Both the position numbers and the translations under genes were made by a program. Shown piece by piece: positions 13,551 to 27,287 of a DNA stretch of 64,000 nucleotides. Numbering within the stretch: the first letter of the stretch is position 1; the number at the start of each line of letters is the position of its first letter. Location of the stretch: assembly GCA_026004735.1 (NCBI GenBank), contig BPJS01000001.1, positions 558,001-622,000 of the forward strand, given 5' to 3'. The notes under the pieces are model-generated. The model was not told where the DNA came from and did no database searches. It saw nothing but the letters and a program-made list of their open reading frames with translations. Origin of the DNA: Isosphaeraceae bacterium (GTDB taxonomy: Bacteria; Planctomycetota; Planctomycetia; Isosphaerales; Isosphaeraceae).

Positions 13551-14776
13551 TCCGTCCGCCCCTGCCGCCGCTGGCGATCGTCCTGCTGGTTGTCCTGATC
13601 GACTTGATCGGCTTCACGCTGGTCATGCCGCTCTTGCCGAGGTACGCCACCCAGTACGGCTACAGCGACCTCCAGATCGGCCTCCTGCTGGCCGCCTTTC
13701 CAATGTGCCAGCTCGTCGCCGGTCCGTTTCTGGGCCGTTGGAGCGACCGCGCGGGCCGTCGGCCCGTGCTGGCGATCAGCCAGTTCGGCACCGCCGTCTC
13801 CTTTTTGATTCTCGGGCTGGCGACCGATTACCGCGTGTTGCTGCTGGCCCGGATGCTCGATGGCGCTTCGGGCGGCAATTTCCTCGTGGCCCAGGCCTAT
13901 GTGGCCGACATCACGCCTCCGCGCGACCGGGCCAAGAACCTCGGCCTGATCGGCGCCGTCTTTGGCGTCGGGTTTGTGCTCGGTCCCCTCTTGAGCGGCC
14001 TGCTGCTGAAGCTGCCGGTCGCGCCCGAGTGGCGGCTCCGCGTCCCGTTCCTGGTGGCCGCTGCCTTCTCGACCCTGGCCTGGGTGCTGGTCTGGCTCTG
14101 GCTGCCCGAGAGTCTGCCGGCCGGAGCGTCCCCACGCTCTGCCGCGCGGGTGCTGAGCTGGCGGGGCGTGACCGACATCCTGACCCACCCCACCTGGGGC
14201 CTGCTGGTCCTGGTCGGATCGCTAACGACGCTCGCCTTCGCCGCCCTCGAAGGCACCTTTAGCCTCTTCCTCGGCCAGCGGTTCGGCTGGGACGCCGACA
14301 CGGCCGCCTTCGCCTTCGCGTTCTTGGGCCTGGCCTCGGCGGCGGTGCAGGGGGGGTTGATCCGCGCCTTGCTGCCCCGGTTCGGCGAACCTCGTCTGGT
14401 CCTCGTCGGCTTGAGCAGCCTGAGCATCGGCCTGGTCGGGATGGCAATCGCCACCGCCGTACCGCCGCTGTTGGGGGCGGGGCTTCTGATCGCCCTGGGA
14501 ACGGGGCTGGCCAATCCGTCGATCGTGGGCCTGCTCTCCCGCCTGACTCCCGAGACCGAGCAGGGCGCCGTCTTTGGCGTGCTCGCATCGGCACAAACCC
14601 TCGCACGAATGATCAACTACGTCACGGCCAACCGGTTGCTCGGCGGCGTCGGTCCGGCCGCGCCGTACTGGGAGGGCGCGGCGGTGGCCGCTCTGGCGTT
14701 GCTGGTCGCCACGGCGGCGGTCCGACGCGCCGCCAGCGACCTGAAGGCTCTTCACCAGCCGGCCCATGCCGCCTAG
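13547..14776 (+). CDS. MFS transporter (TetA-like drug/H+ antiporter group)
   Basis: A 409-residue, twelve-helix major facilitator. The loop 2-3 signature is visible as GPFLGRWSDRAGRRPVL, helix 4 has ARMLDGASGGNF, and helix 5 has GAVFGVGFVLGPLLSGLL, the antiporter-type motif C. This pattern is closest to TetA/Bcr-like proton-coupled efflux proteins; the substrate is unknown. It starts at GTG 13547 overlapping the TGA of the preceding membrane-protein gene. The stop shares a CTAG palindrome with the stop of the convergent glycosyltransferase (14773-14776), so there is no intergenic space for a separate terminator. Confidence 0.9.
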   Translation: MIRPPLPPLAIVLLVVLIDLIGFTLVMPLLPRYATQYGYSDLQIGLLLAAFPMCQLVAGPFLGRWSDRAGRRPVLAISQFGTAVSFLILGLATDYRVLLLARMLDGASGGNFLVAQAYVADITPPRDRAKNLGLIGAVFGVGFVLGPLLSGLLLKLPVAPEWRLRVPFLVAAAFSTLAWVLVWLWLPESLPAGASPRSAARVLSWRGVTDILTHPTWGLLVLVGSLTTLAFAALEGTFSLFLGQRFGWDADTAAFAFAFLGLASAAVQGGLIRALLPRFGEPRLVLVGLSSLSIGLVGMAIATAVPPLLGAGLLIALGTGLANPSIVGLLSRLTPETEQGAVFGVLASAQTLARMINYVTANRLLGGVGPAAPYWEGAAVAALALLVATAAVRRAASDLKALHQPAHAA

Positions 14777-17121
14777 CGGCCCGGCAGGTCGCGGTCGAGA
14801 TACCCGCCGATCGTCGCCGGGTCGGTGTAGCCGTAACGGGTCAGGACCCGGCGCACCGCCTCGGGACGCCGGATCAGAATCTCGACGGCCTCGATCAACG
14901 CCTCAGGCCGCTGCCGGAGCAGCCGCTCCGAGAACGGGCCGCCCCGGTCATAGCGGGTCACAATCGCGGCCAGCCGGTCCACCTCGGGATCGCCCGAAGC
15001 GACTCGCGGCGACTTGCCCCCGCGGACATGCTCGATCAACCCCCGCGCCGCCCGTCGCAAACCGTCCGGGTCAGCAGCCGCCCAGGCCAGCGTCGGCTCA
15101 TGCACGCCCAGACTCGCCGGCCGTGTCAACCCCACCCCCCAGAACCGCGACAACCACGGCGCATACGCCCGCACCCAGCCCGGCACCTCCGGGTCGGGCG
15201 GCGGCTCGCCCGCATCATCGGTGAGCAACTGCAACGCGACGCTCAGGGCCGCCGCCCGAGGATCGGCGACCGTCACGACCCGCAACCCATCCAACTGGGC
15301 CGGCGTCGAGGCATACCAGGGTTTCAGCGCGAAGAGCAGCCGGGTATTGGCCGTCGCCTTGGAGTCGTGGGTCAAGAGCCAGAGAAACGGGTAGTCATCG
15401 TCGGGCGCGCCCAGCCGCACATCGCCCCGGAGTACGCCCAGTGCCTGAAGCTCCTGAAACGTCGACGGACTCGACAGGCTATTCGGAAACGCCACATGCG
15501 CACCTCGCGGCAGCCGCTCATTCAGCTCAGCAATCACCTGCGGCGTAAACGCGTCGTACCAGTACGTCAGCTCAAAGCCGGCGGACCACGCGCCTCGTGG
15601 TCCACGGATCAATTCATTATAATAAGACAACTCATAGGGATGAATCCGCACCAGAGCGAGGGCTGCTGGAGCGAGCGTCGCCAACGCCACCACTGCCCGC
15701 GCCGCTGTGGGACGGACCCGTGCCAACCGCGCCATCAGGTCGGCCGCCGCAACCACCCCCCAGCCGCAAAACGCCGCTAGAAAGGCAAATGTCGGCAGAA
15801 ACAGCCGCACTCCGTCATGAGCCGGTGTCGGAAACATCCGAAGAATCGGCAAGGTCATCAGGTGGATCAGCAGGTAGGCCGGAAGCCGATCCTTCTGGAA
15901 CCATTGCCGCACGCCCCAGACCAGACCCACAGCCGCTGCGGCCAGCAGCGTCGCCGGAACCGTGATCGCCATCAGCACGAAGGCGTTTTCCCACGGAAGG
16001 CTGAATTCATAGAGCTGGCCGAAATAGAGGATCTGGATGTCGGGCAGCGCGCCGCGGCGGCTTGCGTTGAGCGCGGCGTAGTGCGCCAAGCGGGGGATCG
16101 TTTCGTTCCACCAGGCCGGATTGCCTAGCCAGGCTAGCAGCGGCGGCCAGGCGAACAGCGCCCCGAGCGTCTCGACGACCGGCCGATCCCCGCCCCAAAG
16201 CGGATGACGCGGCCAGATCCGCGCCGCCGCGCGCCTGAGCAGCCACCAGAACCAGGGCAGGGCCAACACCCAACCCGGCAGCCAGCTCTTCGGTTTATGA
16301 ATGAACAAATTGGTATATGCCGGCGGAGGCAAGACCTCGATCAGCCGCCGAATCTCCAGGGCCGTCATAGCGAGCACGGCGAGCATCGGCAGCAGCGTCA
16401 GCCCGCCATCCAGCAAGGCCAGACCACGCCGCCGGTCCAGCGGCGGTCGGAGCGCGGCGACTGCCAGACACAGCCCGAGCGGCACGATGACTCCGACGGT
16501 CGCCATTTTCACCAGAAACGCAAGCCCAAGCAGTCCACCGACCGCGATCCGCCACCGCTGCCCGCCCGGCTCGAGTGCCTTCCAGAACGCCAGCGCCGTC
16601 GCCACCCAGATCAACAGGCCCGGAATGTCGGTGTCGATCAAATGGGCCTGTCCGTACAGCCGGGGCATCAGCAACAGCGACAGCCCGGCCGTGCCCCCCA
16701 CCCAACGCCCGTACCGCCCCGTCAAAAACGTGTGTAGAAGCGCGATCGTCGCGGCGAATTCGAGCACCGTCGCAATCCGCCGCGCGACGATCTCGTTCAC
16801 CCATCGGTTCAAAAGCCCATAGGTGGCCAGATTGGCCTGACCGGCCAGCGGCGGATGGAAATTGATGCCGTGCCGGGCGTAGGGCCAGTAGTAGAGCAGC
16901 GCATCGGCATCGAGCAGCCGCTCCAGGTCGGACCACGACCGCGCCTCCGCCAGCCGCTCCCACCACTGGATCGAAAGCTGCTGGCTGTAGGTATAGGCTG
17001 GCTCGTCGTAGGTCAGACCAAAGTCGGCGGTGGTCGGGACGAGCAACAGCACCGCCACCAGAAAGGAAACCGCAAACTCGGCCCAGGGCCGCCACCGCGG
17101 GCAGCCGGTCCCGACGCTCAT
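14773..17121 (-). CDS. large GT39/ArnT-like membrane glycosyltransferase
   Basis: A 782-residue polytopic protein of the PMT/ArnT superfamily (GT-C fold). The first loop has the acidic motif TYDEPAYTYSQQ expected for metal and lipid-phosphate sugar binding, followed by a HGINFHPPLAGQ segment and many hydrophobic helices. The C-terminal 250 residues are soluble, with KPWYASTPAQLDG and a helical tail. Such enzymes move a sugar from a polyprenyl phosphate donor to proteins or lipids on the outer face of the membrane. It overlaps the stop of the upstream paralogue by ATGA (17118-17121), so the two are co-translated. Acceptor unknown. Confidence 0.8.
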   Translation of the reverse strand: MSVGTGCPRWRPWAEFAVSFLVAVLLLVPTTADFGLTYDEPAYTYSQQLSIQWWERLAEARSWSDLERLLDADALLYYWPYARHGINFHPPLAGQANLATYGLLNRWVNEIVARRIATVLEFAATIALLHTFLTGRYGRWVGGTAGLSLLLMPRLYGQAHLIDTDIPGLLIWVATALAFWKALEPGGQRWRIAVGGLLGLAFLVKMATVGVIVPLGLCLAVAALRPPLDRRRGLALLDGGLTLLPMLAVLAMTALEIRRLIEVLPPPAYTNLFIHKPKSWLPGWVLALPWFWWLLRRAAARIWPRHPLWGGDRPVVETLGALFAWPPLLAWLGNPAWWNETIPRLAHYAALNASRRGALPDIQILYFGQLYEFSLPWENAFVLMAITVPATLLAAAAVGLVWGVRQWFQKDRLPAYLLIHLMTLPILRMFPTPAHDGVRLFLPTFAFLAAFCGWGVVAAADLMARLARVRPTAARAVVALATLAPAALALVRIHPYELSYYNELIRGPRGAWSAGFELTYWYDAFTPQVIAELNERLPRGAHVAFPNSLSSPSTFQELQALGVLRGDVRLGAPDDDYPFLWLLTHDSKATANTRLLFALKPWYASTPAQLDGLRVVTVADPRAAALSVALQLLTDDAGEPPPDPEVPGWVRAYAPWLSRFWGVGLTRPASLGVHEPTLAWAAADPDGLRRAARGLIEHVRGGKSPRVASGDPEVDRLAAIVTRYDRGGPFSERLLRQRPEALIEAVEILIRRPEAVRRVLTRYGYTDPATIGGYLDRDLPGR

Positions 17122-18803
17122 AATCCTGACCCTTCGTCGGCCGGGAACGCCCAGATCAACGGCACCCCAAGAACACGCACCAGGACCGTGCCTTCACGGT
17201 TTCCCTGCCGCCGCACCAGCTCCCGCACCGCTGGCGCCATCGAGCCCGGCCGATTCTGAACGACCGCCACGGCCGGAGGCTCGCCCCGACCCATATACAC
17301 CGGCGCCCGCAGCAACCCCGCTTCGTTGTAATACCAGGCCACCGGGTTCGCCACGAACAAGACGCTCCGCCCGGGTTCCACCCGCTCGTCGAGTCGTCGA
17401 AACGCTTCGGGGGTCAGGGCATCCCAATAGTAGGTCGGCTCCATCCCTAGCGCCGTCGCCCCAGGAAGACCCCCGACGACCGGACTGTAATACGACAGCG
17501 GAACCGGCATCATCACCGCCACGCTCAGTGCCGCTTCGGCCAGGCTCAGCCCCGCCGCCCACCCCGCCAGGCGCCCCCTCAGCGACGCCACCCCCAGCCC
17601 CGACAACACCGCCAGCGGTCCCAACGCCGCCGCCAGTTGGCGAACCCCATCATGGCCCGGCGTGTGGGGCAGGGCACGCACCACCAGCAACGTCGCCGCG
17701 CTTAGGACCAGCAACAGCCCCACCGGCTCGCTCCGGATCTGCCGCACCGCCGCCAGTCCACCGCCAAGGGCCAGAATCAGAAACCCGACCGGCGTTGTCA
17801 TCACCACCCAGACTACCGTGTTGTACCAGGGTAACGATCCCGTCGGCGTCTCGTAGATCGTTCCTAGAAACTGCGTGCGAATCGGAATTGTCTCGGAACG
17901 GCTCAGGTTCGACTGCAAGAACCGAACCAGGCCGACCACCGGTTCGCCCCAGAAGGGCGGATTGACCGCCCAAAACACCGGCACCGCCACCAGGCCCGCC
18001 GCCAGCAACCAACCCAACGCCGGGCCATCCCGCCGCACCAAGGCCCAGACCGCCAGCGGCACCGGCAACAGCCACCCCGTCAGCTTGGTCGCTGCGGCAC
18101 AGCCCAGGACCACCCCCAGCCCAATCACGCCCGCCAGCCGCCGCCTCCGGCTCGCCGCTTCGACCGTCTCGGCAAACCCGAGCGTCCCAAGCAGCCACAG
18201 ACTGGCCAGCAGGCCGTCGTAGGTGGCGTAGTGCCCCAACGCGAACAGGTGGGGATGAAGCACCCAGGCGGACGCGGCCACCAGCCCCGCCTTCCAACCC
18301 CACCGCTTTGCCCCAAACCAGCCCGCGACCCCCGCCGCCAGACTAAACGCCAGCATCGTCCCCAGCCGCGCTCGGGCCAGATCGCCAGCCCACGGCATCA
18401 ACCCGTCCCCCACCAGTGCCACCAGCGCATAAAACGCCGGATGACCGTGTGGCTCCTCGCGCGCAAACGGCCAGAACCAGGACACCACCTGCGGGTCGAA
18501 CAGCTCGCCCAGCGTGTCGATCTCCGCTGCCGAGGGCCGGCGCCTCCGATCCTCCAACGGCCGCAGCCGCCACCGATCCCACTGCGCGGCAAAGCCGCTC
18601 GGGTCCCGGACCGCCTCGAGCCAGGCATGAACCCGATCTAGCCGCGCCAGCGTGTACGCTTCGTCCCAGACTAGAGCCAGCCTCGGCTCGGTCCCCACCA
18701 TCACGATCAAGGCGATCAGGCCTGCCCCCAAGCCAAGGACCACGGCTCGGCGGTGCTGGCCGGGGGAGTCGGCGGCAGGCGTGGCAGCCAGCGCGGACAT
18801 CAA
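17118..18803 (-). CDS. GT39/ArnT-like membrane glycosyltransferase
   Basis: A 561-residue polytopic GT-C fold protein. An N-terminal helix precedes the catalytic-loop acidic motif VWDEAYTLARLDRV, then EEPHGHPAFYALVALVGD (the HP motif typical of PMT-like enzymes), and at least nine further hydrophobic segments. It sits immediately upstream of the 782-residue paralogue and shares ATGA with it. Both have the same order of motifs but different lengths, so they are probably an old duplication with separate substrates. ATG codons at 18803 and 18800 are equivalent. The donor is presumably a polyprenyl-linked sugar, by family. Confidence 0.8.
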   Translation of the reverse strand: MMSALAATPAADSPGQHRRAVVLGLGAGLIALIVMVGTEPRLALVWDEAYTLARLDRVHAWLEAVRDPSGFAAQWDRWRLRPLEDRRRRPSAAEIDTLGELFDPQVVSWFWPFAREEPHGHPAFYALVALVGDGLMPWAGDLARARLGTMLAFSLAAGVAGWFGAKRWGWKAGLVAASAWVLHPHLFALGHYATYDGLLASLWLLGTLGFAETVEAASRRRRLAGVIGLGVVLGCAAATKLTGWLLPVPLAVWALVRRDGPALGWLLAAGLVAVPVFWAVNPPFWGEPVVGLVRFLQSNLSRSETIPIRTQFLGTIYETPTGSLPWYNTVVWVVMTTPVGFLILALGGGLAAVRQIRSEPVGLLLVLSAATLLVVRALPHTPGHDGVRQLAAALGPLAVLSGLGVASLRGRLAGWAAGLSLAEAALSVAVMMPVPLSYYSPVVGGLPGATALGMEPTYYWDALTPEAFRRLDERVEPGRSVLFVANPVAWYYNEAGLLRAPVYMGRGEPPAVAVVQNRPGSMAPAVRELVRRQGNREGTVLVRVLGVPLIWAFPADEGSGL

Positions 18804-19696: not shown

Positions 19697-20341
19697 TCAA
19701 CGAAGCGAGGCCGATGCCTCGGAAGCCACCTGCGCTTCCGGAGTGCCCTGGCCCCGCCGGGGCAGCACCCGCTCCCGATAGAACCGAGCCATCGACCGAT
19801 AGTCAGGCCCCTTGTCCACCTCACGCAGACCAAACGTCCGGGCGATCTCGTCGGTGGCCTGCTCCAGTGTCCAGCCGCAGTAGAGCATTCGGTAGGCCAT
19901 CTGGACCATCGACGCCCGGTTGATCCCATGGTGGCAGTGGAAGTAGACCGGCTGGTTGGCTGGGTCGGCCACTGCGGCCGCCGCCGCCTCCAGCTTGTCC
20001 ATCAGCGATTCCGCATCCACGAGACTGCGGTCGTCGACGATCGGAATATGAAGCCAGCGCACGCCGAGTTCGTCGGCCAACGCTTTTTCTCGAATGGCCA
20101 GCGGATGCGTCGGCCGATGAGCCAGCGCGACCACCGTCTTGATCCGATGATCGCGGATCAGACCGCGCATCGGCCAATCCTGCTGCCAGGCGCCCCGGTA
20201 AATCCGGCCCGGCTCGACCACCGCGAATTTGTCGGGCCAGATGTAGTCGTGGCCGTGCCGCCAGGCCTGCTGGCACGCCAGCGCCACGGCCGCAACGATC
20301 AGAATCCGGCGAATCCAACGATTGCGTACAAATCTGGCCAT
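19697..20341 (-). CDS. membrane-anchored dual-specificity/tyrosine phosphatase-like protein
   Basis: A 214-residue protein with a basic N-terminus and one hydrophobic helix (about residues 12-25, ILIVAAVALAC) followed by a phosphatase domain outside or facing the periplasm. The active-site loop is FHCHHGINRAS with nucleophile Cys136 and Arg142 (C-x5-R); Asp103/Asp104 in IVDDRSL are in place for the general acid. It resembles the bacterial dual-specificity phosphatases with the GRIYRGA segment near residue 45-51. The C-terminal 20 residues are Gly/Ala/Ser-rich. Substrate unknown. It is upstream of the ArgA-like gene on the same strand but probably a separate unit. Confidence 0.85.
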   Translation of the reverse strand: MARFVRNRWIRRILIVAAVALACQQAWRHGHDYIWPDKFAVVEPGRIYRGAWQQDWPMRGLIRDHRIKTVVALAHRPTHPLAIREKALADELGVRWLHIPIVDDRSLVDAESLMDKLEAAAAAVADPANQPVYFHCHHGINRASMVQMAYRMLYCGWTLEQATDEIARTFGLREVDKGPDYRSMARFYRERVLPRRGQGTPEAQVASEASASLR

Positions 20342-20591
20342 GCGGGCTCTCGCGGACGGAACGGCGCCGCCTTGGGTTTGGAGGGTGGGCGGCCGAGCGG
20401 CGGGACTCTAGCACCGCGCCGGGCACCGCACAAGGGCGCCCGGTCTCCTCCTCTCTCATACGCATCGGCCCGGAAGCCGGGTCGACTTGGGATTTCAGAA
20501 ACTCGGGGTCGTCAAAGTCGACGCAATCGCTACGATGCCGCCCGGACGGCTCCGAATCGCCTCGGAGGCAGTCCGAGGTTCGATCCCCTCG

Positions 20592-22172
20592 ATGTCGACG
20601 CGGCACGCCCTGTTCGCCCTGGTCATTCTTGGCTCGATCCTGCGGCTGGCGCTGGCCGCCGGGTTCGACCTAGGCCATGACGAGGCCTACCACCTGCTTT
20701 ACACCCGCCGCCCGGATTGGAGCTATGTCGATCATCCGCCAGCCGTCGCCGTGCTGGCGCAGCTCGGACGGTGGCTCTTCGAGCCGTGGTTGGGGGGCCG
20801 GCTTGGGCCGCGGTTGCCGTTTGTACTGCTCTTTGCGGTCTCGACGCTCCTGATGGCCCGCCTGGCCGCCCGGGTCTATGACGCTCGGGCTGGTCTGGCC
20901 GCTGCCTTTTGCCTCAACGCCGCGGGCTACTTCGGGCTGGCGGCGTCGAGCTTTATCTTGCCCGACGGCCCGTTGCTCTTCTTCTGGCTGCTGGCCCTCG
21001 ATGCCTACCTGACGGCCGTCGGCTCCGACGCCGCGCGGGACGGTCGGCTGGCGCCCTGGGTCGCCCTCGGTCTGGCGATCGGCGGCGCGTTGCTCAGCAA
21101 ATACCACGGCCTGCTTCTGCCGGTGGGCCTTGGCCTCCACTTGGTCACCGAGCCGACGACCCGCGGCTGGCTCCGCCGGCCCGGGCCGTACCTGGCGCTG
21201 GCGGTGGCCGGGATCGTTTTTGCGCCGGTCGTCGGCTGGAACGCCGCCCGTGGTTGGGTCTCGTTTGTCTATCAAGGTGGCCGTGCCGTGCCAGCCTCGT
21301 GGTGGCCGCGGCCCGACCGGTTTGCGATCGCGCTGGTGGGCCAGATCGTCTACACGCTGCCCTGGGTCTGGCTGGCTCTGGTCACCACGCTCGGCGGCCG
21401 ATCTGGCTCGGTTGGCGAGCGTTTCTTCCGCGTGCAGGCAGTCGTGCCGCTCTTGGTGTTCGGCCTGGTCGCCGCCTGGCAGCCGACGCTGCCTCACTGG
21501 GGCCTGATTGGACTGGTCCCGCTGATGGCGCCGGCCGGCCAGCGATGGGTGCTTGACCTTCAGACGCGACCGACGCCAGCGCGGCGCCGAGTGATCCTCT
21601 GGGCGGCGGTGCCTGTCCTGGCCGGAGCGTTGATCGTTGCCCACCAGCGCCTCGGCGTAATCCCGGCTGGTCTGCTAGCGCGGCTCGGTCTGGCACCCGC
21701 GGCCGACCCGACTCTCGAACCCTACGGCTGGGATCAAATCGCGCAAGCCCTGCGCCGGCTTGGCGCCGGCCAGTCACACAATTCGTACGTCTTCACCAGC
21801 CAGTGGTATCAGAGCGGCCAACTGGCCGCTGCGCTGGGTCCCGACGTGCCCGTGCTCTGCTACAGCGCTCGCAAGCCGGTCAGCTTCGCGACCTGGAGCG
21901 AGCCGGCGTCCTGGGTGGGCTGGGATGGGCTGCTTGTGGTCGTCGATCCGCGATCGACCGAGCCGGCGGCCTTCGAACCCTGGTTCGAGCGGATCGAGCC
22001 GCTAGGCACCGTGGCCGTCACACGGGGCGGCAGCGTCGTGCGGACCGCGCGGCTCTACCGCTGCGTCCGCCAGGTTCGCCCGTTTCCGTTCGCACAAGCC
22101 GAACTGTGGAGCACAGCGCATGACAACACCCCGGGCCGCCTCGCGGGTCACGATCCGAGGACGCTAAAATGA
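20592..22172 (+). CDS. GT39/ArnT-like membrane glycosyltransferase
   Basis: About 526 residues when begun at ATG 20592 (MSTRHALFALVILG), the start that places the first membrane helix at the N-terminus; in-frame ATGs at 20487 and 20535 add polar residues and have no better ribosome site. The catalytic loop has FDLGHDEAYHLLYTRRPDW and SYVDHPPAVAVLAQ, the acidic motif and HPP motif of ArnT/PMT GT-C enzymes. About ten hydrophobic segments and a soluble C-terminal domain (SQWYQSGQLAAALG) follow. It is the third such enzyme in 8 kb and overlaps the diadenylate-cyclase-like gene by ATGA (22169-22172). Confidence 0.85.
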   Translation: MSTRHALFALVILGSILRLALAAGFDLGHDEAYHLLYTRRPDWSYVDHPPAVAVLAQLGRWLFEPWLGGRLGPRLPFVLLFAVSTLLMARLAARVYDARAGLAAAFCLNAAGYFGLAASSFILPDGPLLFFWLLALDAYLTAVGSDAARDGRLAPWVALGLAIGGALLSKYHGLLLPVGLGLHLVTEPTTRGWLRRPGPYLALAVAGIVFAPVVGWNAARGWVSFVYQGGRAVPASWWPRPDRFAIALVGQIVYTLPWVWLALVTTLGGRSGSVGERFFRVQAVVPLLVFGLVAAWQPTLPHWGLIGLVPLMAPAGQRWVLDLQTRPTPARRRVILWAAVPVLAGALIVAHQRLGVIPAGLLARLGLAPAADPTLEPYGWDQIAQALRRLGAGQSHNSYVFTSQWYQSGQLAAALGPDVPVLCYSARKPVSFATWSEPASWVGWDGLLVVVDPRSTEPAAFEPWFERIEPLGTVAVTRGGSVVRTARLYRCVRQVRPFPFAQAELWSTAHDNTPGRLAGHDPRTLK

Positions 22173-23635
22173 CAGCCACACTTCCCCCGCATCCGGCCCC
22201 CGCATCCGACGGCCCATCACGCCGGCCAGGAGAGCACGTTGTGGCGACCGCCGACCGTCCCAGGCCGCCGTCGTCTCGCGTCGTTGGGCTCTACCAATTG
22301 CTGATGCGCCGGTATCTCGAACACTTCTTCCCGGATGCCACGATCGAACCGGCCAGCGACCGGAGCTTCATCGAACTCGAGCAGCCAGGCCGGCGGTCCA
22401 TCTTCCGCGTCCAGGACGACCCGGTCGGCATCGGCCTCGAAATCGAGTTGTTTCGCACGCGCTACCTGATGATGCCGGGCAGCCCCAGCCCGTTTCTGCC
22501 CAGCGAGCGGCGGCTGGTCCGCTCGATCCTTCGCGTGCTCGAACGGCGCTACTCGGCCATTTACGACGTCCACTCGGCCGAACTCGCCCCCGTCTTGCAG
22601 TCGGAGGCCGAGGATCAGATCGTCGCCGAATATCTCGCCACGCCCCACCCCCATCGTTTGCCGATTGCCCTCGAGGCCCTCCGCGGCGCGGCGCTTTCGA
22701 CCTTTGAAAACCGCCGGGTTTCCACCGGCGCCTTGCTGCTCGGGACGCCCCGCGACCCGGCCCATCCCGAGCGGATCAATCCCCCCGGCGCGCCCAGCTA
22801 CGGAATTCGCCTCTCGGCCATCAAGAGCTTCCATCGCATCTGCGACGGCCTGCGCACGGTCTACATCGTCGATCAGGCCGGCGATATCGCCTGGCCGGTC
22901 GACATCGCACGCTGGGCCGAGGCGGTGCAGGGCGCCGATCCGCTGCCGGTCCCATGCCCACGCGCTTACGTCCCCCACGCCCGCGCCACCCGCTCCGGCG
23001 ACCACGTCGTCGTCTTGCTCACCCCCGCCCAGCAGATCAAGGTCTTCGCCCACGGCCGGCTCCGCTTCACCTACGGCGACGCCCGCTGGCGGTTGCTCGA
23101 CATCCCCAGCAAGTTCGACGCCTGGCGCCAGGCCGTCGGCACCACCGAGCCCCGCAACCTCGCCGACCGTATCTTCCGCGCTGCCCTCAACCTCGCCGAA
23201 GACCGCCACGGTGCCCTCTTCGTCCTGCTCCGCGAACCCGAACGCAGCCTCAACCTGCTCGTCGCCCCCGGCGACCAGATCCTCGCCGAAATCGCTGCCG
23301 ACGACCCGCTCGACCCCGAAAACCTCTCCCCGCGACTGGCCAAGCGCTCCCTCCACCATCTGGCCCGCGGCCAGACGATCGCCGACCTCGACGACGCCGT
23401 GCTCGAAGCCTTTGCCGGAATCGACGGTGCGGTCGTCACCGATCACCGCGGCCGCCTCCTCTCCTTCGGTGCCATCCTCCGCCTGACACCCGAAACGATG
23501 AGCGCCCGCCGCGCCGTCGAAGGCGCACGCACCACCGCCGCACTCGCCGCCAGCCACCACGGTCCCGTGCTCAAGGTCAGCGAGGACGGCGTCCTGACCA
23601 TGTTCCTGGCCGGCCGCCGCGTCTGGGAACTGTGA
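22169..23635 (+). CDS. protein with a diadenylate-cyclase-like (DAC/DisA_N) C-terminal domain, active site degenerate
   Basis: A 488-residue soluble protein. The last 150 residues align by eye with the DAC domain of DisA/CdaA: GALFVLLREPE (first strand), IDGAVVTDHRGRLLSFGAIL with the DGA motif near residues 419-421, then EGARTTAALAASHHGPVLKVSEDG (near 451-474) corresponding to GTRHRxA...VSE, and LTMFLAGRRVWEL at the end. The RHR of active cyclases is RTT here. The N-terminal 300 residues resemble no domain I can name firmly; DACNV-type sensor domains are a candidate. The gene is translationally coupled to the upstream glycosyltransferase. It may be an inactive sensor or an enzyme of altered specificity. 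Confidence 0.7.
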   Translation: MTATLPPHPAPASDGPSRRPGEHVVATADRPRPPSSRVVGLYQLLMRRYLEHFFPDATIEPASDRSFIELEQPGRRSIFRVQDDPVGIGLEIELFRTRYLMMPGSPSPFLPSERRLVRSILRVLERRYSAIYDVHSAELAPVLQSEAEDQIVAEYLATPHPHRLPIALEALRGAALSTFENRRVSTGALLLGTPRDPAHPERINPPGAPSYGIRLSAIKSFHRICDGLRTVYIVDQAGDIAWPVDIARWAEAVQGADPLPVPCPRAYVPHARATRSGDHVVVLLTPAQQIKVFAHGRLRFTYGDARWRLLDIPSKFDAWRQAVGTTEPRNLADRIFRAALNLAEDRHGALFVLLREPERSLNLLVAPGDQILAEIAADDPLDPENLSPRLAKRSLHHLARGQTIADLDDAVLEAFAGIDGAVVTDHRGRLLSFGAILRLTPETMSARRAVEGARTTAALAASHHGPVLKVSEDGVLTMFLAGRRVWEL

Positions 23636-23912: not shown

Positions 23913-24968
23913 TCAGAACCGGTCCATCAGTGCCGAGAGGACTTCTGGCCCTGGCCGCAGGGCCGCGTCGTCGAGAAAGGCGAGCGGCGTTTCGACCAGG
24001 TGTTGTTGCTCGACGTAGTCCGGACGGTCCGGATCGGCGTAGATCAGGCCGGTCACAAACTCGTCGTTGGCATGGCTCTCCCACAGCAGCCGCACCGCGC
24101 CGGCGCGGTCGCGGACGTCATGCTCCTCGTGGTGCAGCGCGCGGAGCGTGATGATCGAGCCGTCGTGGAGCGTGACCTGCCGCGACTGGCCCGGCTCCTG
24201 CTCGATGGCGATTTCCTCGCGGCGCTCGATCAGCCCAATCTCGTGGAGCGGCTCCTCGTGCTCCTTGGCCCAATCCCAGCTCTTGGTCGAGCCGACAAAG
24301 TCGTTGAACGTCACGCACGGGCTGATAATGTCCAGCAGCGCCAGGCCGCGATGGTGCAGGGCGGCTTTCAAGAGCGGCACCAACTGCTTCCGGTCGCCGG
24401 CAAACGACCGCGCCACAAAGGTCGCCCCCGCGGCAATCGCTTCCAGGCACAGATCAAAGGGCGGCGTCGGGTTGGTCTCGCCACCGGGCCGCCGCAAGGG
24501 GGCGTTCAGGTCGGCCGTCGCCGAAAACTGACCCTTGGTCAATCCGTAGCAGCCGTTGTTTTCGACCAGATAGACGATCGGCACGTTGCGGCGACAGGCG
24601 TGCTTGAACTGGCCCAGACCGATGTTTGCCGTGTCGCCATCGCCGCTGATACCCAGGATCGTCAGCCACCGGTTGGCCAGCGCGGCCCCCGTCGCTACCG
24701 ACGGCATCCGCCCATGCAGACTGTTGAACCCGTGGCTGTACTGGAGAAAGTACGCCGGCGTCTTGCTCGAACAGCCGATCCCGCTGATCTTGACCGTCCG
24801 GTAGGGATTCAGCCCGACCTGCTTGCAGGCATCGATCAGCGCGCTGGTGATGCTGTTGTGGCCGCAGCCCTTGCAGAGCGTCGAGGCCGAACCCTGATAG
24901 GCTAACACCGGCAACGCAAACGGCTCGCGCCCCGGTTCCCGCACCATAACCGTCGCTTCGGCAGCCAT
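23913..24968 (-). CDS. korB: 2-oxoacid:ferredoxin oxidoreductase subunit beta
   Basis: The TPP-binding subunit, about 351 residues from ATG 24968 (GTG 25031 would add 21). Visible: CKGCGHNSITSAL near the N-terminus, GIGCSSKTP, the TPP-Mg motif GDGDTANIGLGQ and NNGCYGLTKGQFSATA. These are features of 2-oxoglutarate (KorB) rather than pyruvate oxidoreductases, and the alpha subunit is adjacent upstream, so 2-oxoglutarate is the likely substrate. The enzyme oxidatively decarboxylates the oxoacid to acyl-CoA with ferredoxin as acceptor. The C-terminal 60 residues beyond the domain (PDRPDYVEQQHLVETPLAFL) are also common in the family. Confidence 0.93.
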   Translation of the reverse strand: MAAEATVMVREPGREPFALPVLAYQGSASTLCKGCGHNSITSALIDACKQVGLNPYRTVKISGIGCSSKTPAYFLQYSHGFNSLHGRMPSVATGAALANRWLTILGISGDGDTANIGLGQFKHACRRNVPIVYLVENNGCYGLTKGQFSATADLNAPLRRPGGETNPTPPFDLCLEAIAAGATFVARSFAGDRKQLVPLLKAALHHRGLALLDIISPCVTFNDFVGSTKSWDWAKEHEEPLHEIGLIERREEIAIEQEPGQSRQVTLHDGSIITLRALHHEEHDVRDRAGAVRLLWESHANDEFVTGLIYADPDRPDYVEQQHLVETPLAFLDDAALRPGPEVLSALMDRF

Positions 24969-25087
24969 CGAAAGAGTCCCGGACGAAGTGAGGTGTTTCG
25001 ACCAGAAAACCGATCTCGAAGGAGAGATCACTAGCCAGAGATCCGCCAGCCGCCAAACCGTCTCAAGAAACGCCCGGTCCGGCCGCC

Positions 25088-27085
25088 CTACTCCGCACTC
25101 GGGCCGGTCGGCGCGCCGGGCGCACCGGCCGCGCCTTGGGGGACGCTCGTGCCTCCCACGCCCATCGCTCCGTGGTCGCCTGCGTGCAGCGCCGAGTCGG
25201 GCGTCAGGTCGGAGATCAGCGGCCGCTCCCGATCCAGGATCGGCCGCGCGATCGCCGAGGCCGGGATCGGTGTTCCGTCGTAGTGCAAAACGGGAATCAG
25301 CCGCGGAATCAGATGGCCTTCCAGCGTCCCATGAAGCAGAAAGCCTACCTGTCCGTCTCGGTTCTGCTCGACGACGTAGACCCGCTCGTGCCGGCCTACG
25401 AAGCCCGCCACGGCTTCATCCACCGGCAGCGCCAGGATCCGGCAATAGTCGGTCTCGACGCCCGCCTCGCGGAGCTGATCGCGGGCCTCGACCACCGCCC
25501 AATGGCTCGTTCCGTAGGCAATAATCCCGACCGCGTGGCCCGCCTCCTCGATCACCGGCTTCGGCAGCCGGCCCCGCGCCGTCTCCAGCTTCCGCGCCAG
25601 CCGGTCGATGTTGCGCTTCCAATCGTCGGGCCGCTCGCTGTAGCCCGACTTCTCGTTGTGGCCCGTGCCCCGCGTGAAATAAGCCGCCAGCGGATGCTCC
25701 GTGCCCGGCAGCGTCCGATAGCAGACGCCATCCCCGTCGACATCCTTGTACCGCTCGAACGCCCCCAACCGCTCCAGATCGGCTGCGCTGAGCACCTTGC
25801 CTCGACTCAGCGGACGGCTCGGATACGCAAACCGCGGACTCATCCACAAATTCATCCCCAGGTCGAGATCGGTCGCCACGAAGACCGGCGTCTGAAACTC
25901 CTGCGCCAGATCAAGCGCCTCGATCGTCATCTCGAAGCATTCGGCCACCGAGCCGGGGATCAACACCACGTGGCGGCAATCTCCGTGGCCGAGCAGGTGC
26001 AGTTTGAGGATATCGCCCTGGTTGGTTCGCGTCGGCAAGCCCGTGCTCGGCCCCATGCGTTCGACGTCGATGATGACGACCGGAATCTCGGCGAAGTAAG
26101 CCAGCCCCACGAACTCGGCCATCAACGAGATCCCCGGGCCGCTGGTCGCCGTGATGGCGCGCGCTCCGGCCCAGCCGGCGCCGACCGCCATCCCGATCGC
26201 CGCCAGCTCGTCCTCGGCTTGCACGATCGCGAACGTCGCCTTGCCATCCGCGCTGAGCCGATGATCCTTGAGCAGATCCTCGGCATACTCAGCCAGGCTG
26301 CTCGAAGGCGTGATCGGATACCAGGTCAGCACACTCGCCCCGCCAAACAAAACACCCAGAGCGCAGGCCTGGTTGCCCTCGATCAGGATCGTTCCGGCGG
26401 TCTGATCCTGCCGCTCGACCCGAACCGGTAGCGGCGGCAAATGTTCCTCGGCCCAGGCAAAGCCCGCTTCGGCCGCCCGGATGTTCGGCTCGGCGGCCTT
26501 CGCCTTACGGCCCGGAAACTGACGCCGAATCGCCCCCCGAACCTCCTCCAACCCGATTCCGCAAGCCGATGCCACCACCCCCACATACACCATGTTGACA
26601 ACCTTGCGCAGCTTGTCCCGATACGACGGATCGCCGGCTACCGGCGGATAGGCCTCTTCGGCCAGCCGCGCACACGGCACCGCGAACAGGTCGACGTCGT
26701 CGCGCAGACCAGCCAGCGGCGTCTTGAGATCGTCTCGGTGAAACACAACGCACCCTGGCCGGGCCGACCTCAGATCGTCGGCCGCCGTCTGGTCGTTCAT
26801 CAGGACCAGCACATCCGGATCGTCGCGGAAGCCCACATAACCCCGCCGGCTGGCCCGCACCAGAAACCAGGTCGGCAACCCCTCAATGTTCGACGGAAAG
26901 ATATTCTTGGCCGCCGCGGGGATCCCCATCGCGTGCAAGGCCCGAACCAACACCAGATTGGCCGACTGGCTGCCCGAGCCATTGACCGTGGCAACCCGGA
27001 TCGCCAGATCATCCAATATCGGACGACTGGGCGGAGACGGCCGACGCGCACCCGCGCGCGGCTCGGCGATCGGTGCGGACGCCAT
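25088..27085 (-). CDS. korA: 2-oxoacid:ferredoxin oxidoreductase subunit alpha (gamma-alpha fusion)
   Basis: About 665 residues from ATG 27085; a GTG at 27223 would add 46 unconserved residues. It fuses an N-terminal gamma domain (VNGSGSQSANLVLVRALHAMGI, VMNDQ-type segment VLMNDQTAADDL) to the pyrimidine-binding alpha domain (EGNQACALGVLFGG, TATSGPGISLMAEFVGLA, PTRTNQGDILKLHLLGHGD) and a C-terminal transketolase-like domain (VEARDQLREAGVETDYCRILALP). This is the usual KorA arrangement. The beta gene follows 119 bases downstream on the same strand. The last 35 residues are a low-complexity Gly/Ala/Pro tail. Works in the cytoplasm on 2-oxoglutarate, inferred from the pair. Confidence 0.93.
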   Translation of the reverse strand: MASAPIAEPRAGARRPSPPSRPILDDLAIRVATVNGSGSQSANLVLVRALHAMGIPAAAKNIFPSNIEGLPTWFLVRASRRGYVGFRDDPDVLVLMNDQTAADDLRSARPGCVVFHRDDLKTPLAGLRDDVDLFAVPCARLAEEAYPPVAGDPSYRDKLRKVVNMVYVGVVASACGIGLEEVRGAIRRQFPGRKAKAAEPNIRAAEAGFAWAEEHLPPLPVRVERQDQTAGTILIEGNQACALGVLFGGASVLTWYPITPSSSLAEYAEDLLKDHRLSADGKATFAIVQAEDELAAIGMAVGAGWAGARAITATSGPGISLMAEFVGLAYFAEIPVVIIDVERMGPSTGLPTRTNQGDILKLHLLGHGDCRHVVLIPGSVAECFEMTIEALDLAQEFQTPVFVATDLDLGMNLWMSPRFAYPSRPLSRGKVLSAADLERLGAFERYKDVDGDGVCYRTLPGTEHPLAAYFTRGTGHNEKSGYSERPDDWKRNIDRLARKLETARGRLPKPVIEEAGHAVGIIAYGTSHWAVVEARDQLREAGVETDYCRILALPVDEAVAGFVGRHERVYVVEQNRDGQVGFLLHGTLEGHLIPRLIPVLHYDGTPIPASAIARPILDRERPLISDLTPDSALHAGDHGAMGVGGTSVPQGAAGAPGAPTGPSAE

Positions 27086-27287
27086 AATGCTTTCTGGCCT
27101 CGTCAGGGAGAGTGACGTCGGCCGGGCCTGCCCATGGCCTCGCTTGCCGGCGGCCGATCCCAACTCGTCCACCGTACCCCACGCGCCCGGCTTCGACGGA
27201 TACCCGTTCGGCCATGCGACCATGACCTATTTCAAGTCGAACACATCCTCCCCCCCCGTGCAACTTCGTGCATAATCTCACAATCCC

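Follow-up and report, generated by a model that had tools for sequence, protein, structure and literature searches.

What does a protein do that ends in a diadenylate cyclase (DAC) domain with an altered RHR motif, and whose gene overlaps that of a membrane glycosyltransferase? The question is raised by a locus in a window of 64,000 nucleotides (the whole stretch of DNA that was analysed) from an Isosphaeraceae bacterium whose genome consists of one contig of 4.82 Mb. As modelled, the product, here called the tandem-DAC protein, is composed of an N-terminal module, a degenerate DAC fold (DAC1, residues 157-326) and a DAC domain that lacks the RHR histidine (DAC2, residues 327-488). A Pfam scan of the protein found DAC as the sole domain, a PDB search with the single sequence returned nothing meaningful, and neither this protein nor the upstream glycosyltransferase matched the PADLOC anti-phage library. 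The start codon is uncertain, as a Shine-Dalgarno-like sequence precedes both ATG 22169 and GTG 22241. Conservation begins only near residue 34, several family members start shortly before a conserved VGLYQ, and the AlphaFold2 confidence is below 50 for almost every one of residues 1-31. A start at the GTG would place a gap of 68 bp after the glycosyltransferase gene.

Table 1. Features of the tandem-DAC locus (positions in the window).
Feature	Position	Strand	Basis or remark
PMT_2-family membrane glycosyltransferase, upstream	20487..22172	+	Pfam PF13231, E 1.6e-23; start not certain; partnership not conserved
ATGA overlap of glycosyltransferase stop and tandem-DAC gene	22169..22172	+	Unique to the source locus among loci examined
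Tandem-DAC protein gene	22169..23635	+	488 aa from ATG 22169; 464 aa with GTG 22241 as start; group A orthologues 52-64% identity
Alternative start	22228..22243	+	AGGAG 22228-22232, 8 nt, then GTG 22241; read from the sequence
N-terminal module, residues 34-156	22268..22636	+	AlphaFold2 model mostly confident; weak GAF-like resemblance, VIA Z 4.5
DAC1, degenerate DACNK-like DAC fold (predicted), residues 157-326	22637..23146	+	Folded alone; Foldseek, VIA; weak DACNK matches in relatives
Asp226-Gly227 of DAC1, putatively at the DGA position	22844..22849	+	61/61 members
DAC2, His-less DAC domain, residues 327-488	23147..23632	+	Pfam match, VIA, hhalign
DGA motif, residues 419-421	23423..23431	+	Asp and Gly 60/60 members, Ala 59/60
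GARTTAA, residues 452-458, replacing GTRHRAA	23522..23542	+	Arg454 58/58; residue 455 Thr 56, Ser 2; hhalign
VSEDG, residues 470-474, replacing VSEETG	23576..23590	+	Ser471, Asp473 and Gly474 57/57, Glu472 55/57

The C-terminal 150 or so residues had been read from the sequence as a DAC fold, and both structural and profile comparisons bear this out. The AlphaFold2 model of the full-length protein (39-row alignment; pLDDT 84.8, pTM 0.84) is matched by VIA, mostly over residues 316-488, to the solved DAC structures of DisA, CdaA, CdaS and CdaM with Z values of 11.4-14.0. These matches mostly span 123-132 aligned residues (177 for 2fb5); the top 40 entries are all DACs, and the next, an unrelated entry, has a Z of 4.5. 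When a profile of 43 relatives was compared by hhalign with 20 canonical planctomycete DACs, the match had a probability of 95% and an E of 3e-8, and it paired DGA with DGA, GARTTAA with GTRHRAA, and VSE-DG with VSEETG. The Pfam DAC profile (PF02457, curated cut-off 27 bits) matches residues 338-480 of the protein with 25.9 bits (E 7.8e-6); in a six-frame search of the genome the gene scores 28.2 bits, and orthologues reach 30.7 bits. By the model and the profile comparison, residues 327-488 are a DAC domain. The earlier note had staked this claim on the structure of residues 340-488 not turning out to be an unrelated fold; the DAC fold of the model and the hhalign match to canonical DACs leave the claim unrefuted.

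The DGA motif is in place, as had been noted. The RHR motif, described as lost, is lost in part: RTT at residues 454-456 retains the first Arg, which is invariant, and it is the His and the second Arg that are replaced in all members. The (V/I)SEE motif of active cyclases holds phosphate and metal; within VSEDG, the Ser and first Glu of VSEETG are retained, the second Glu has become Asp, and the motif is one residue shorter. The ATP/metal site of Listeria CdaA is formed by the side chains Leu31, Asp71, Thr102, Arg103, His104, Ser122 and Glu124, of which His104 binds phosphate and Glu124 binds metal (PMC7288161). Their equivalents in DAC2 are Leu350, Asp419, Ala453, Arg454, Thr455, Ser471 and Asp473. 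The ATP contacts retained are Leu350, Asp419, Gly452, Arg454, Ser471 and Glu472; only Thr102 (Ala here) and His104 (Thr here) are changed, and the metal-binding Glu124 corresponds to the invariant Asp473. An Ala before the Arg is also present in a DacZ_P protein of the same genome (GARHEAA). The second Arg of RHR is absent from the CdaA contact list (PMC7288161) and is likewise missing from the genome's own DacZ_P proteins, so that within the motif only the His position departs from all canonical DACs aligned. It is predicted with confidence that the ATP pocket of DAC2 is mostly intact. This agrees with the original reading, in which the domain derives from a DAC, binds a nucleotide and has an intact DGA but an altered RHR; we infer that DAC2 binds an adenine nucleotide with a metal.

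Among 59 related genomes, 34 have relatives, all within the same family, and when 84,980 species genomes were scanned, relatives came up in Isosphaeraceae, in unclassified planctomycete bins and in Acidobacteriota (Vicinamibacterales among them). In the tree, the orthologues form group A (25 rows), paralogues from Isosphaeraceae form group B (17), and a third block consists of Acidobacteriota sequences (19); the source genome carries the A copy only. The His is lacking from 58/58 members, which come from both phyla, and its loss is therefore fixed. Decay to a pseudogene was considered and ruled out, as the motif does not vary among about 60 members of the two phyla. The proteins form a conserved family, apparently an unstudied one.

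More distant relatives, similar in the last part of the middle domain and in the DAC, were found in other Planctomycetota (L079 with GARTTAA, L077 with GARRASA) and on an Agrobacterium vitis plasmid. The A. vitis protein (L194:2386-3666; NZ_AP023285.1 12390-13670) has 426 residues, is annotated as hypothetical, retains DGA and has GGRTAAA. On one side its gene is flanked by a gene with a Cap15 cyclic-dinucleotide-receptor domain (PF18153), on the other by a CBASS type II-like set of Mov34/JAB, ThiF/E2, DncV-like CD-NTase and patatin. A search for Cap15 in six planctomycete genomes, in which the controls were silent, gave no match, and A. vitis is a single case. In two planctomycetes of the same class, a DAC-like protein (L197:8614-9882 and L198:9142-10344) is encoded directly downstream of a lactate-permease-like gene; the L197 protein has GARTTAA, and its gene overlaps that of the permease-like protein.

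The 300-residue N-terminal part had been considered unlike DisA or CdaA, a description that fails for residues 157-326. In the AlphaFold2 model, residues 163-303 and residues 331-487 show the same succession of secondary-structure elements. Modelled alone with 44 relatives, residues 157-326 give a pLDDT of 90.2 and a pTM of 0.87. Of the Foldseek matches listed for this lone model, 50/50 are DAC structures (probability 0.98-1.00, best E 1.8e-4), and the top 40 VIA entries are all DACs with Z values of 7.2-9.5, the next entry having 2.8. The models lead to the confident prediction of a second DAC fold, a degenerate one, in the middle domain. The tandem is not demonstrable from sequence alone: hhalign gives a probability of 2.3% for DAC1 versus DAC2 and of 0.3% for DAC1 versus canonical DACs. 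A short hhalign match between DAC1 and DAC2, VYIVDQAGDIAWPVDI to AVVTDHRGRLLSFGAIL, lies in the register expected from the fold. Motifs in DAC1 were placed by element order and ungapped spacing, not by superposed coordinates; on this basis Asp226-Gly227 would correspond to DGA, and residue 285, mostly Ser/Thr, would take the position of the phosphate-binding Ser. DAC1 has no recognisable GxRHRxA or SEE motif, which fits a non-catalytic partner.

Below the curated threshold, DAC1 resembles DACNK (PF21753), a "probable sensor domain" in Pfam, which has weak matches, collinear in the examples inspected, to the DAC1 of 11/44 relatives (best E 3.7e-4); the middle domain is therefore perhaps a diverged DACNK. 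DACNK did not match the tandem-DAC protein of the source genome, and the relatives listed score 11.6-12.6 bits for a cut-off of 27. A search of 99 genomes of the phylum with the DACNK profile gave no match, but the controls were silent too. The Pfam name of DACNK gives no fold, whereas DAC1 has a DAC fold in the model. Homology of DAC1 to DACNH was also considered, and hhalign gave no support for it.

How might such a protein work? The reading that we place first, at a little short of an even chance, is that it is a cytoplasmic nucleotide-binding signalling protein with two DAC folds, in which binding by DAC2 and pairing with DAC1 would make a sensor. DAC2 would bind ATP or c-di-AMP with a metal via Leu350, Asp419, Arg454, Ser471 and Glu472/Asp473; because the phosphate-binding His is missing, it would not synthesise c-di-AMP in the ordinary way. 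Canonical DACs require two domains face to face (PMC8573169; PMC6368335); in the characterised DACs considered here, oligomerisation brings these copies together. DAC1 may stand in for the second protomer of such a pair, so that the nucleotide state would be read as a conformational change of the DAC1-DAC2 pair. The c-di-AMP itself would be supplied by DacZ-like enzymes of the same cell. The earlier note had proposed looking for a canonical DAC elsewhere in the genome, and two DacZ-like cyclases with the His were found (DacZ_P plus DAC, 86 and 76 bits). The genome also encodes a protein that carries 7TM-7TMR_HD, a domain of PgpH phosphodiesterases, as well as DHHA1 proteins and one TrkA_C protein. 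With two His-bearing DACs and a PgpH-like protein, a c-di-AMP pool independent of the tandem-DAC protein is plausible.

Several lines of evidence favour a sensor: the fixed loss of the phosphate-binding residue, the predicted DAC fold of both halves together with the ATP contacts kept in DAC2, the lack of recognisable GxRHRxA and SEE motifs in DAC1, and the cyclases and PgpH-like protein encoded elsewhere in the genome. In M. tuberculosis DacA, the change of RHR to AAA abolishes both ATP binding and activity (PMC3328451). This result supports a DAC2 that does not catalyse, but the loss of ATP binding in the triple mutant also argues that the DAC2 pocket could be weak. A further point against the sensor comes from Leptospira CdaA, in which Ala at the equivalent of either Asp419 or Arg454 abolishes activity, and Ala at the equivalent of Ser471 lowers it (PMC12974146). 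Both Asp419 and Arg454 are invariant in the family, and a pure sensor might let the Asp drift.

That same invariance speaks for the second reading, an unorthodox but active cyclase, which we regard as a serious possibility, though with clearly less than an even chance. Here a DAC2 homodimer placed face to face, or DAC2 with DAC1, would make c-di-AMP or another dinucleotide, with Thr455 serving in place of the His. Asp419, Arg454, Ser471 and the acidic pair Glu472-Asp473 are essentially invariant, and the second RHR Arg is neither a listed CdaA contact nor kept in the DacZ_P proteins of the same genome (RHW, RHE), which leaves the His as the one motif position that differs from every canonical DAC aligned. 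The phosphate-binding role of His104 in CdaA and the inactive M. tuberculosis mutant count against this reading, as does the fact that two His-bearing DACs already serve the cell. To our knowledge, no DAC without the His has been assayed, which also weighs against a cyclase. The evidence for sensor and cyclase is nearly balanced, because the loss of the His favours the former and the invariant Asp and Arg favour the latter. If DAC1 and DAC2 paired face to face within the chain, with two different nucleotide pockets, the protein could also be a single-chain synthase for a mixed or otherwise new dinucleotide signal, or else its dedicated receptor. The invariant Asp-Gly of DAC1 and the mostly Ser/Thr residue at its phosphate-Ser position make a second pocket conceivable, but we consider such a synthase or receptor improbable.

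A structural or protein-interaction module that retained the DAC fold but has no nucleotide-dependent role is likewise unlikely. The lost His, the heavily altered DAC1 and the lack of a conserved partner gene pointing to a signalling output would all fit such a module, but conservation is highest at the positions that contact ATP and metal in canonical DACs, a pattern that a structural role leaves unexplained.

The neighbourhood bears on the partner question. The ATGA overlap described before is present, formed by the stop of the open reading frame 20487-22172 and the start of 22169-23635, and from it control of surface glycosylation had been proposed. Enough upstream sequence is available for 23 group A loci: 11 have the glycosyltransferase gene ahead of the DAC gene on the same strand, and 12 lack it; outside the source locus, the gap to the DAC gene ranges from 22 to 1466 bp (start codons uncertain). 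The group B and Acidobacteriota loci have other neighbours and no glycosyltransferase. Since the partnership is not conserved at orthologous loci, the proposed control is not supported, and the glycosyltransferase was rejected as the main functional clue. That the protein is a dedicated regulator of the adjoining glycosyltransferase, placing surface glycosylation under a nucleotide signal, is thus very improbable, despite the overlap at the source locus and the upstream gene at nearly half of the orthologous ones.

A tyrosine/dual-specificity phosphatase-like gene (19697-20341, minus strand), divergent from the glycosyltransferase gene, is the more constant upstream neighbour, with 17 group A loci; at several of the 12 loci without a glycosyltransferase, a divergent tyrosine-phosphatase-like gene adjoins. 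Downstream on the minus strand lies a 2-oxoacid:ferredoxin oxidoreductase (23913-27223; beta subunit 23913-25031, fused gamma-alpha 25088-27223), whose genes are syntenic beside group A genes in many relatives. Two more PMT-family glycosyltransferase-like membrane proteins are encoded in a row at 14773-18803 (minus strand), of which 17118-18803 is syntenic in relatives. Gene order around the family gene is conserved in Acidobacteriota, where an NAD-dependent-epimerase-like gene of about 300 aa usually follows 9-73 bp downstream on the same strand (L127-L137, L142, L146, L147, L150).

The tandem-DAC protein has a known fold and belongs to a known superfamily, of which it is a variant with two DAC folds in a row and a fixed motif without the His. 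A search of the accessible literature did not find tandem DAC folds with such a motif, and part of this may be on record in a survey. Two DAC folds per chain in two phyla would offer a natural test of the role of the RHR His, and the family could show how DAC-derived sensors or mixed-substrate cyclases arise. Judging from DAC1, one or more of the domain types classed as a "probable sensor domain" beside a DAC may be a worn DAC copy.

Compared with canonical DACs (PF02457; DisA, CdaA, CdaS, DacZ), the tandem-DAC protein shares the fold, DGA, the first Arg of RHR, the GAL motif and VSE. It differs in the replacement of the RHR His by Thr and of the second Arg by Thr/Leu, in SEDG for SEET, and in the extra predicted DAC fold in the chain. 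In DisA, the DAC is followed by a linker and HhH, whereas DAC2 stands at the extreme C-terminus; in CdaA, three transmembrane helices precede the DAC, whereas the N-terminal part here is modelled as soluble alpha/beta domains. The DACNG-DACNH-DAC proteins of Planctomycetota resemble the tandem-DAC protein in having a long N-terminal part followed by a DAC without the His (GARYNSA or GARFNSA in L082, L084, L085 and L087), but their N-terminal parts belong to other Pfam families, and DACNH has no detectable sequence relation to DAC1. Judged by these motifs, loss of the His recurs in DACs fused to putative sensor domains. The DacZ_P-DAC cyclases of the source genome itself (L001, L002) share with the tandem-DAC protein the DAC, GAR or GTR, and a replaced second RHR Arg, but they retain the His and have a single DAC behind a different N-terminal domain.
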